64,000 bases of DNA from Phytobacter palmae (lineage in GTDB: Bacteria > Pseudomonadota > Gammaproteobacteria > Enterobacterales > Enterobacteriaceae), in contig FONB01000002.1 in NCBI GenBank assembly GCA_900112785.1, forward strand, positions 124,001 through 188,000. The letters run 5' to 3'. A program made the position numbers and the translations under genes. The notes under the pieces were generated by a model that did no database searches, was not told where the DNA came from, and was given only the letters and a program-made list of their open reading frames with translations. Positions within the stretch are counted from its first letter, which is position 1. Every line of letters begins with the position of its first letter. This document shows, piece by piece, positions 28,677-39,254 of the stretch.

Positions 28677-28712
28677 TTGAATAATAAATCATTATTGAAT
28701 AAATATTCAATG
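28677..28712. promoter_or_regulatory. Operator copy 1 of the apiose-type cluster
   Basis: A 36-base AT-rich block contains TGAATAATAAATCATTATTG followed by the inverted repeat TGAATAAATATTCA. It ends 11 bases before the start of the binding-protein gene. About 31 of 36 bases are shared with the block at 34341-34376, so both divisions of the cluster seem to share one regulator, most likely the SorC-type protein encoded between them. Confidence 0.65.
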
Positions 28713-28723
28713 TGGAGAAAAAG

Positions 28724-29665
28724 ATGAAAACGACCCTACTGAAATCGGCTGTACTCGCTTCCCTGATCGCCGCTTCCGGCTCGCTGTTTGCAGCGGATAA
28801 CGGGCTGATCGCCATTATCACCCCCTCACACGACAACCCATTCTTTAAAGCGGAAGCGGACGGTGCGGCGGCAAAAGCCAAAGAGCTTGGCTACACCACC
28901 CTTGTGGCTTCCCATGACGATGACGTCAACAAACAAAACCAGTTGATCGAAACAGCCATTGCCCGTAAAGCGAAAGCGATCATCCTTGATAACGCCGGGG
29001 CGGATGCCACCGTCGGTCCGCTGGAAAAAGCCAAAGCCGCAGGCGTTCCGGCCTTCCTGATTGACAGGGAGATCAACAAAACCGGCGTTGCCGTCGCGCA
29101 AATCGTCTCTAACAACTATCAGGGCGCACAGCTTGGCGCGCAAAAATTCGCCAAATTACTCGACGGCAAAGGCAAATATGTCGAACTGTTGGGCCGTCAG
29201 TCTGATACCAATGCCAGCGTCCGCTCCCAGGGCTACCACGATGTACTGGACGATTTTCCGGAGATGAAAATGGTGGCGCAGCAGACTGCGAACTGGAGCC
29301 AGACCGAAGCCTTCACCCGTATGGAAGCCATTTTGCAAACCAACCCGGATATCGTGGGCGTGATCTCCGGTAATGACACCATGGCGCTTGGCGCAGAGGC
29401 GGCACTGAAAGCCGCCGGGAAAAACAACGTTATTGTGGTTGGCTTTGACGGCAGTGACTACGTTCGTGACTCCATTATCAATAAAGGCAACATCAAAGCC
29501 ACCGTCCTGCAACCAGGCTGGCAGCAGGCACAAATGGCGGTCGAACAAGCCGATCACTTCCTGAAAAACGGCAAAGCCCAGAAAGAAGAGAAACAGTTGA
29601 TGGACTGCATGCTGATCGACGAAAGCAACGCCAGCAAACTGAAAATGTTCAACCTGAGCAAGTAA
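28724..29665 (+). CDS. Periplasmic sugar-binding protein, probable D-apiose importer
   Basis: This 313-residue RbsB-type protein has a signal peptide (cleavage near LFAA-DNG). The mature start [20 protein letters not shown] is typical of pentose-binding proteins, and [14 protein letters not shown] lies near residue 235. The start is the ATG at 28724 with GGAG at 28714-28717. It is the first gene of a unit with a lipoprotein, ATPase and permease, preceded by the shared operator. The D-apiose assignment rests on the neighbouring isomerase, kinase and split transketolase, not on this sequence; other pentoses remain possible. Confidence 0.72.
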
Positions 29666-29678
29666 GGGCGGAGATGTT

Positions 29679-36257: not shown

Positions 36258-36292
36258 TAAAAATAATAAAGAGCAACTTACTGGAGAGAGCA

Positions 36293-37711
36293 ATGTCCCG
36301 AATTCCCCAACAACTGACCATGGCGGTTATCATTGGTAACCGTGGATTTTTCCCGAGTTACCTGGTGGCAGAGGCCCGTGAACAGGCGGTTGCCCTGTTT
36401 GGCCGTCTTGGCATCAAAACCATTATGCTCGACGAGACCCAGACCGAACTCGGCGGCGTTGAAACCCGCCAGGATGCCAAAACCTGTGCCGAACTGTTCC
36501 GCGCCCACCGTGATGAGATTCATGGCGTGGTTGTGCTTCTGCCAAACTTCGGCGATGAAAAAGCGGTGGCGGAAACCCTTCGCCTGTCGGGTCTGAACGT
36601 CCCGGTACTGGTACAGGCAGAAGAAGATAATCTGGATAAGATGGGGCTGGCGACGCGCCGCGACAGCTTCTGCGGCAAGATCTCCTTGTGCAACAATCTG
36701 CGCCAGTACGGCATCCCGTTCACCCTGACCACACAGCACGTTTGCGCCCTGAGCGGTGAGGTTTTTGAACAGGATCTGAGGCGTTTTGAGCAAATCTGCC
36801 GCGTGGTGAGCAGCATGCGTGGCGTTCGAGTGGGGGCCATCGGCGCACGTCCGGCCGGTTTTAATACCGTTCGTTACAGCGAAAAATTGCTTGAGCGCCT
36901 GGGCATTGCAGTGGAAACCCTGGATCTGTCCGAAGTCTTCACCCGTATCAAATTACTGCGCGATGACGATATCCGCGTTGATGAGAAACGCCGACTGTTG
37001 CTCGATAACGCCGACGCCAGCGGTATCGCCGCTGACAAACTGCTCACCATGGCGAAACTGTTTGTGGTAATCAGCGAATGGGTTATCGCCAACGATATCG
37101 ACACCACGGCCATTCAGTGCTGGACCTCATTGCAGGAAAACCTGGGCATTAACGTCTGCTCCATCATGAGTGTGATGTCCGGTCAATTGATGCCATCAGC
37201 CTGTGAAGTCGACGTGATGGGTGCGCTTTCTATGTACGCGCTGGCAAGCGCCAACATGAGTCCGGCCTCGATTGCCGACTGGAATAACAATTTTGGCGAT
37301 GATCGCGACAAATGTGTGCTCTTTCACTGCGGTAACTTTGCTGCTGCCAGCCTGGAAACTCCACATATGGGCACCGCCGATATTATCGGTACCACCGTGG
37401 GTAAAGAGAACACCTGTGGCGCAGTACATGGTCGACTGAAATCCGGCCCCCTCACCTATTTTCGTCTGAGCACCGACGATTTGACCGGGGAAATCAAAGC
37501 CTATGTGGGCGAAGGCAAATCCGTCGACGATCCGCTGGATACCGTCGGCTGCCGCGCGGTTATACAGGTTCCGCATCTGGAAGAGTTACTGACCTACATC
37601 TGCCGTAACGGTTTTGAACACCACGTGGCGATGAACCATGCGGCCAGCGGCGCCATCCTGCATGAAGCCTTTACGCGCTATCTCGGTGTTGATACTTACC
37701 TGCACCAGTAA
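36293..37711 (+). CDS. apsI: FucI/AraA-fold isomerase; probable D-apiose isomerase
   Basis: This 472-residue protein resembles the L-fucose/L-arabinose isomerase superfamily. An N-terminal Rossmann-like part (MAVIIGNRGFFPSYLVAEAR, VVVLLPNFGDEKAVAE) is followed by a C-terminal metal-binding barrel region with SVMSGQLMPSACEVDVMGAL, LFHCGNFAAA and HHVAMNHAASGAI. Short for FucI (about 590), it fits the isomerase of the non-oxidative D-apiose route (apiose to apulose). It lies 35 bases after aptB with GGAGAG before the ATG. A different pentose cannot be excluded without a search. Confidence 0.65.
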   Translation: MSRIPQQLTMAVIIGNRGFFPSYLVAEAREQAVALFGRLGIKTIMLDETQTELGGVETRQDAKTCAELFRAHRDEIHGVVVLLPNFGDEKAVAETLRLSGLNVPVLVQAEEDNLDKMGLATRRDSFCGKISLCNNLRQYGIPFTLTTQHVCALSGEVFEQDLRRFEQICRVVSSMRGVRVGAIGARPAGFNTVRYSEKLLERLGIAVETLDLSEVFTRIKLLRDDDIRVDEKRRLLLDNADASGIAADKLLTMAKLFVVISEWVIANDIDTTAIQCWTSLQENLGINVCSIMSVMSGQLMPSACEVDVMGALSMYALASANMSPASIADWNNNFGDDRDKCVLFHCGNFAAASLETPHMGTADIIGTTVGKENTCGAVHGRLKSGPLTYFRLSTDDLTGEIKAYVGEGKSVDDPLDTVGCRAVIQVPHLEELLTYICRNGFEHHVAMNHAASGAILHEAFTRYLGVDTYLHQ

Positions 37712-37742
37712 CGTGTGCACATGGGCATGATGGAGAAATACC

Positions 37743-39254
37743 GTGTCGAAAGATATTGTCATTGCGCTTGATGAAGGGACGACCAACGCAAAAGCTGTCG
37801 CGCTGGATGAACAGGGCAACGTGGTGGCGAAAAGTTCGCGCTCGTTGTCGATCCAGACACCACGCGAGGGCTGGGTAGAGCAGTCCGGCGAACTGCTGTT
37901 GCAGGCATCGCTGGCGGTAACAGGCGAGGTCATTGCGCAGGTTGGCGCCGAACGCGTAGCCGCGCTGGCGGTCAGCAATCAGCGGGAAACGGCCATTGGC
38001 TGGTATCGCGCAAGCGGGGTGCCATTAGGTCCGGCCATCTCCTGGCAATGCTCGCGCACGGCAGATTTTTGTCATGCCCTGCGTGAGCAAGGTCAGGAAG
38101 CGAAAATTAAAGCGGTGACGGGTCTGCCCGTCGCCCCGCTGTTTTCTGCGTCCAAAATGTGCTGGCTGCTCAATTCGGTGCCCAATGGTCAGGCGCTGGC
38201 AGAGCAAGGCGAAATTTGCCTGGGGACGATAGACAGTTGGCTGCTCTGGCACCTGACGGCGGGCGAGGCGTTTTGCTGCGACTACTCTAACGCTTCGCGC
38301 ACACAACTACTGAATCTCAACACCGCCGACTGGGACGCGGAGATGCTGGCGCTCTTTCGGCTCCCCCGTCAGGCATTACCCGCAATTCGCCCCTCCAGCG
38401 GGTTATTTGGTTATACGAAAGGGCTGGGTGCAATTCCGGATGGTATCCCGGTGATGGCGATGATTGGCGATTCGCACGCGGCATTATTCGCCCACAGCCT
38501 TGGCGCCGCCGGGTGTGTGAAAGCAACGTACGGTACCGGTTCATCGGTGATGGCTCCGGTGGCATCCGCGCAGTGTGACGTGAAATCGCTGGCGACCACC
38601 GTGGCCTGGCACGATGGCGAGCGGCTGGTGTATGGGCTGGAGGGCAACATTCCCCATACTGGCGACGCCGTGGCATGGATGACGGAAAGCACCGGCTTAA
38701 GCGAATTGCCGCAAGCGGAACTGGCGCAAGCCCTGAATTCACTGCCTGCCTCGGTGGAGTCAACGCTTGGCGTCTATTTTGTTCCGGCACTGACGGGGCT
38801 GGGCGCGCCGTGGTGGGACGAAGATGCGCGTGGTCTGATCCATGGTCTGAGTCGTGGGGTCAAGCGCGCGCATCTGGTGCGTGCGGCGCTGGAATCCATC
38901 GCCTATCAAATTGCCGACGTAGTGGTTGCCATGCGCCAGCACGGCGATTTTGCTTTAAAAGCACTGATGGTCGATGGTGGTCCCACTAAAAACGACTGGC
39001 TGATGCAGTATCAGGCGGACCTGCTGGGTTGCCCGGTGATGCGCAGCGACGTCCCGGAGTTATCGGCAATGGGGGCCGCACTTCTGGCACGTAAAGCACT
39101 ATTGCAGGTCGATAGCGAACAGCTTCGCCAGTATCTTCCTGAGCATGTGACCTTTACACCGGACGACCTGCGCCACGGTAGATTGCAAAATCGCTGGCAT
39201 GACTGGCAAAGCGCCGTGCAGCTTGCCCGCAGACAGAAAACGCAGGCAGGTTAA
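37743..39254 (+). CDS. apsK: FGGY-family carbohydrate kinase; probable D-apulose kinase
   Basis: This 503-residue kinase has the N-terminal phosphate loop ALDEGTTNAKAVALD (9-23), GPAISWQCSRT, YGTGSSVMAP and the C-terminal GGPTKNDWLMQYQADLLG, typical of glycerol/xylulose-type FGGY enzymes. It starts with a GTG at 37743, GGAG lying seven bases upstream. In the proposed route it phosphorylates apulose to apulose-4-phosphate, the substrate of the split transketolase. It is the last gene of the unit; the first hok/sok repeat begins two bases after its stop codon. Confidence 0.68.
   Translation: MSKDIVIALDEGTTNAKAVALDEQGNVVAKSSRSLSIQTPREGWVEQSGELLLQASLAVTGEVIAQVGAERVAALAVSNQRETAIGWYRASGVPLGPAISWQCSRTADFCHALREQGQEAKIKAVTGLPVAPLFSASKMCWLLNSVPNGQALAEQGEICLGTIDSWLLWHLTAGEAFCCDYSNASRTQLLNLNTADWDAEMLALFRLPRQALPAIRPSSGLFGYTKGLGAIPDGIPVMAMIGDSHAALFAHSLGAAGCVKATYGTGSSVMAPVASAQCDVKSLATTVAWHDGERLVYGLEGNIPHTGDAVAWMTESTGLSELPQAELAQALNSLPASVESTLGVYFVPALTGLGAPWWDEDARGLIHGLSRGVKRAHLVRAALESIAYQIADVVVAMRQHGDFALKALMVDGGPTKNDWLMQYQADLLGCPVMRSDVPELSAMGAALLARKALLQVDSEQLRQYLPEHVTFTPDDLRHGRLQNRWHDWQSAVQLARRQKTQAG

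Follow-up and report, generated by a model that had tools for sequence, protein, structure and literature searches.

A gene cluster that very probably serves the catabolism of D-apiose, a branched plant-wall sugar, lies in a 64-kb stretch of DNA (hereafter the window) inside the 5.28-Mb genome of Phytobacter palmae (G000). An initial annotation of this DNA had named an ATP-binding cassette (ABC) importer with a DUF2291 lipoprotein, a sugar-binding regulator, a split transketolase, an isomerase and a kinase, and every one of these genes was found with its frame open (Table 1). It had also set the cluster next to the enterobactin locus, where it does lie: entD (264.7 bits to the NCBIfam EntD model, cut-off 169) ends at 28606, and the gene for the periplasmic sugar-binding protein (SBP) starts 117 bp downstream. 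Since the gene set is conserved across many genera, chance was ruled out as its origin. The permease start at 31815 was picked to fit homologues of 1089 bp. The start of AptA is most likely the ATG at 34493, judged by the preceding GAGGTGGA; the resulting 276-residue product equals the length annotated in Escherichia coli SE15, and the gene shares 8 bp with aptB, in agreement with the overlapping transketolase genes described initially.

Table 1. Genes and operator-like sites of the predicted D-apiose cluster (positions within the 64-kb window).
Feature	Position	Strand	Domain match or remark
SBP (periplasmic sugar-binding protein, importer I), 313 aa	28724..29665	+	Peripla_BP_4
DUF2291 periplasmic lipoprotein	29679..30287	+	PF10054, 99.6 bits
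ABC ATPase, RbsA-like	30287..31813	+	PF00005, two stretches
ABC permease, RbsC-like	31815..32903	+	PF02653 (BPD_transp_2), 157.9 bits
SorC/DeoR-type sugar-binding regulator	33224..34180	-	Sugar-bind PF04198, 207.5 bits
AptA, N-terminal half of putative split apulose-4-phosphate transketolase, 276 aa	34493..35323	+	Transketolase_N
AptB, C-terminal half of putative split transketolase	35316..36257	+	Transket_pyr + Transketolase_C
Putative ApsI-type D-apiose isomerase, AraA/FucI fold, 472 aa	36293..37711	+	Fucose_iso_C, 113.4 bits
Putative AplK-type FGGY kinase, GlpK-like, clade 1 (E. coli type)	37743..39254	+	FGGY_N/FGGY_C
Operator-like palindrome TGAATAAATATTCA	28696..28709	+	28 bp before SBP start; imperfect copy 28678-28691
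Operator-like palindrome TGAATATATATTCA	34360..34373	+	Imperfect copy 34342-34355
Operator-like palindrome TGAATATTTATTCA	34450..34463	+	43 bp before AptA start

The reactions of a non-oxidative D-apiose pathway, with the ApsI, AplK and AptA/AptB cluster of Actinobacillus succinogenes, were reportedly described by Carter and colleagues in 2018. The comparable cluster in our data (L164) comes from a genome that is putatively A. succinogenes 130Z, and it holds the same genes in the order regulator, SBP, DUF2291, ATPase, permease, AptA, AptB, kinase, isomerase. Sequence identity between the two clusters was 77% for the SBP, 71% for the ATPase, 80% for the permease, 77% for AptA, 74% for AptB and 72% over 472 residues for the isomerase, the last of which points to an ApsI-type enzyme. 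The palindrome is exact before the SBP of L164 and has one mismatch before AptA. The two clusters differ in that the L164 regulator stands upstream of the importer, and in the order AptAB-kinase-isomerase in place of the AptAB-isomerase-kinase of the window. In the family of G010, AptA was found at E 1e-60 in eight of 140 genomes, each with an isomerase of 71–73% identity nearby.

Structural comparison is consistent with the AraA/FucI isomerase fold. The isomerase model (predicted local distance difference test score, pLDDT, 88.3) superposed on arabinose isomerases with scores that peaked at Z 33.5 (7cyy_F, 2.8 Å over 443 residues), against about Z 28 for fucose isomerases; searches of the PDB with the sequence gave no match. 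Residues E305, D329, H345, H443 and H444 were invariant over 20 isomerase rows, down to 28% identity, and together with the modelled fold they would fit the metal site of AraA/FucI enzymes. Within the genus, the isomerase was 98–100% identical in all three genomes (99% in G001, putatively P. diazotrophicus; 98% in G002, putatively P. ursingii). Among 343 genomes of the family it was present at 77% or more in 40 and at 22–24% in five, with no match in 298; among 369 class-level genomes, the matches beyond P. palmae itself were weak (28–29%, two genomes). In three loci from another family of the order (L035, L036 and L037), an AraA/FucI-like isomerase of 27–31% identity accompanies AptAB-like proteins (35–45%) and an SBP of 51–53%; the clusters possibly represent a related pathway for another sugar.

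The best PDB matches of the SBP of the importer were 5ibq_A and 4ry0_A, at about 446 bits (446.5 for 5ibq_A), and the 5ibq sequence agrees by eye with a protein of plasmid p42f of Rhizobium etli CFN 42, to which the SBP of the window is 73% identical. The 5ibq structure was reportedly solved with apiose bound, and the importer appears orthologous to a D-apiose-binding SBP. The p42f gene lies in an oxidative apiose/apionate locus, together with genes for OiaX and for a D-apionate lactonase scoring 1049.7 bits (NCBIfam cut-off 750). This locus matches the window in its importer genes, DUF2291 included, and in their order, but its neighbours are OiaX, the D-apionate lactonase and others, and its 24.9-kb stretch contains no transketolase.

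A related cluster also lies beside entD in E. coli. AptAB-like DNA at 60–80% identity was found in 629 of 5,426 E. coli genomes, and the strain SE15 carries two short-chain dehydrogenase/reductase (SDR) genes there and no isomerase. According to PMC13001218 (cited here and below from excerpts), genes of SE15 served as the query for the apiose cluster, with ECSF_RS02700 as aplK and ECSF_RS02710/02715 as aptA/aptB; in the same excerpts the cluster adjoins the enterobactin genes and lacks apsI, and E. coli strains with the cluster (ST131/ST14) grow on D-apiose, K-12 not. The window shares with the ST131/ST14 cluster the site beside entD, the palindrome before AptA and four proteins at 71–80% identity, namely AptA (80%), AptB (76%), the kinase (75%) and the regulator (71%). 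These values point to an AptA/AptB split transketolase (ECSF_RS02710/02715) and to an FGGY apulose kinase, AplK (ECSF_RS02700). The E. coli cluster differs in having the two SDR genes for the isomerase and another importer (importer II; SBP 44%, ATPase 50%, permease 55%). In the E. coli SBP (L024:7752-8684), residues conserved in importer I are changed, for example DREI to NREI and NWSQ to KGTL; these positions possibly face the ligand, so another form or another sugar may be bound. The SDR-type cluster is also present in Klebsiella pneumoniae 176 (L152), where the aptA homologue (L152:12010-12832) is split in two pieces and relatives have intact copies.

The initial proposal of an ApsK kinase is accepted here in part. 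An FGGY kinase is present, but the printed name is aplK (PMC13001218), and the window copy groups with E. coli rather than with L164. In the kinase tree, one clade of 21 rows includes the window and E. coli (support 100/99) and a second of nine rows includes L164, Buttiauxella and Yersinia (support 99/98); one Rhizobium row formed a long branch of unsure placement. In the loci compared, gene order tracks the kinase clade, being either AptAB-isomerase-kinase 1 or AptAB-kinase 2-isomerase.

Linkage to apiosidases in relatives was assessed in the best 80 of 364 isomerase loci, and an apiosidase was found within 10 kb of the isomerase in at least six of these 80. Five were matches to PF13204 with a single query (L051, L055, L066, L071 and L116); the sixth, in Citrobacter portucalensis (L064), is an apiosidase of another type, identified when ten cargo proteins from six selected loci were scanned. 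In Phytobacter massiliensis the apiosidase gene sits between the permease and the regulator of the apiose cluster. In Pantoea ananatis LMG 2665 an isomerase of 78% identity has for neighbours an apiosidase (310 bits to PF13204) and an MFS_2 transporter, and the 20-kb stretch around it contains no AptAB. Across 147 sampled genomes of relatives, no PF13204 match exceeded the cut-off and one of 20 bits fell below it.

The claim of two units sharing an operator held as a fact of sequence: the 64 kb contain just three perfect copies of the 14-bp palindrome TGAATANNTATTCA, at 28696, 34360 and 34450 (shuffle mean 0.00), and all of them fall inside the two control regions of the cluster. In a set of 93 loci, the palindrome with at most one mismatch was found within 300 bp before the SBP in all 65 readable importer-I loci (62 exact) and in none of eight importer-II loci. 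Before AptA it was present in 71 of 83 loci, including exact copies in 8/8 SDR-type loci; the 12 without it were ten Yersinia loci (L105-L108, L110-L115), L075 and L089. When fragments of 300 bp were drawn at random from these loci, true sites not excluded, 174 of 9300 held an exact copy and 260 a copy with at most one mismatch. Upstream of each unit, 24–25 bp ahead of the palindrome, stands a promoter-like TAGACA-17-TATC(G/T)T; the frequency of promoter-like and terminator-like sites was not above that in shuffles.

Together, the orthology with the L164 cluster, the orthology of the importer with that of the R. etli apionate locus, the apiosidase linkage of relatives and the published growth of E. 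coli support the D-apiose pathway of the initial annotation, and we consider that Phytobacter very probably carries here an intact cluster for the non-oxidative catabolism of D-apiose. From the observed genes, their order and orthologies, the predicted fold, the conserved palindromes and the apiosidase linkage of relatives, we infer the following reactions and regulation. Periplasmic D-apiose would be bound by the SBP and taken up through the ATPase and permease. The AraA/FucI-fold isomerase would convert D-apiose to D-apulose, from which the FGGY kinase would make apulose-4-phosphate. AptA/AptB would then transfer the C2 unit of apulose-4-phosphate to glyceraldehyde-3-phosphate, yielding xylulose-5-phosphate and dihydroxyacetone phosphate. 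The regulator, bound to the TGAATAWWTATTCA palindromes downstream of the promoter-like sites, would probably repress both units, and the sugar or a phosphate of that sugar would release it. Because no apiosidase was found in the genome of the window or in its two genus relatives, free apiose must come from elsewhere.

Several observations weigh against this assignment. The missing apiosidase (G000-G002) is one of them. Relative to L164, the DUF2291 protein is only 35% identical, the regulator only 54%, and the kinase, at 45%, belongs to the other deep clade. That the ApsI of A. succinogenes is the AraA/FucI-type protein of L164 is a probable equation drawn from an earlier note and from gene order. 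The growth in PMC13001218 is that of strains, not mutants, and their cluster has the other importer and the SDRs. The same excerpts give apsI to Pectobacterium; the best 80 of 364 isomerase loci included none from Pectobacterium. A PF03211 profile that matched nothing in 26 genomes was equally silent in the controls and so carries no weight here.

Other explanations also have to be weighed. Neither the isomerase nor the kinase exceeds any NCBIfam cut-off, leaving the substrate unfixed by family models, and the AraA/FucI fold serves several sugars; both would suit a pathway of identical reactions that acts on a different aldose (a rare hexose or some other branched pentose), with an isomerase that merely resembles ApsI. 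We regard this as unlikely, given the orthology of the SBP with a protein inside an apionate locus, the apiosidases of related isomerase loci, and the fact that E. coli strains carrying related AptAB/AplK grow on apiose (PMC13001218). The sole NCBIfam match of the isomerase is to the sulfoquinovose isomerase SftI (NF048012), and a transketolase-type sulfoquinovose pathway has been published (PMC11659671, from an excerpt), raising the idea of an SftI-like isomerase and split transketolase acting on sulfoquinovose. The match of 114.4 bits is far under the equivalog cut-off of 700, the importer is orthologous to one in the apionate locus and relatives are partnered with apiosidases, such that we give this idea hardly any credence. 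Genes that are intact in a locus that is silent or serves transport only would be quite improbable with all frames open, the palindromes conserved and the isomerase kept nearly unchanged in all three genomes of the genus.

The kind of cluster and the genus are already in print, as Phytobacter is named among the 98 genera for which PMC13001218 (2026) gives the pathway as predicted; the finding is therefore already known, and the enteric setting stressed initially is, by the same prediction, nothing special. In the open-licence literature an apiose isomerase, and likewise an apiose gene cluster with transketolase in Klebsiella, were found only in PMC13001218, and no paper on apulose was found.

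Comparison of loci showed a varied first-step slot. In G811 (L137), a 331-residue xylose-isomerase-like TIM-barrel protein (L137:6266-7261) occupies the slot of the isomerase in an apiose cluster; neither this stretch nor that of a plasmid of Rhizobium sp. CC-CFT758 (L172), which also carries a TIM-barrel protein, has an AraA/FucI-type gene. Sets similar to L137, with AptAB and kinase, were seen in L172 and on a Streptomyces plasmid (L174). The TIM-barrel protein was found at E 1e-60 in two of 147 relatives. It had been considered as the published ApsI and was dropped for A. succinogenes, the L164 cluster holding an AraA/FucI-type gene. Homologues also occur on several Pantoea plasmids (L173, L175), in stretches that contain no apiose cluster around them, which weakens a constant role of this protein in apiose use. 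Both SDR homologues of E. coli (SDR1 62%; SDR2 in two pieces) lie with AptAB, an FGGY kinase and a SorC-type regulator on a plasmid of R. etli 8C-3 (L153:6270-16267); the SDR module thus extends beyond enteric bacteria. In Pseudescherichia (L061), importer I, regulator and isomerase stand in a stretch that has no AptAB or kinase, and in G821, of the same genus label, an SDR-type cluster and the isomerase occupy separate places.

The interval between permease and regulator is a cargo slot, only 320 bp long in the window (32904-33223). Its contents elsewhere include apiosidase, MFS and ROK-like genes in P. massiliensis (L051:2951-6931); P. ursingii (L100) has fimbrial genes there, L054 has MatE and L002 has Rpn. 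L002 (CP110761.1, 1-11645) is a linear 11.6-kb 'plasmid' record of K. pneumoniae INF102 comprising the cluster (isomerase 93%) and an Rpn-family gene, which suggests an excised or repeated segment or, alternatively, an assembly leftover.

We tentatively suggest, while holding it somewhat less probable than its negation, that these loci are built of exchangeable modules, in which the step from apiose to apulose was solved in three unrelated ways before one AptAB core, and two importers, two kinase clades and the apiosidase cargo slot were swapped independently. The three first-step modules would be the AraA/FucI-fold isomerase of the window, the TIM-barrel AP_endonuc_2 protein of G811 and the Rhizobium plasmid, and the SDR pair of E. 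coli and Klebsiella. The SDR pair could act by reduction of apiose to apiitol and reoxidation of the latter to apulose, or importer II and the SDRs could feed in apiitol. Which module performs the first step is a testable question that the comparison raises, as is the question why, at the site next to entD, E. coli ST131 carries two SDR genes and a different importer where its relatives carry the isomerase. Phytobacter, an enterobacterium of plants and patients, is supported by these data as able to use a plant-cell-wall sugar.

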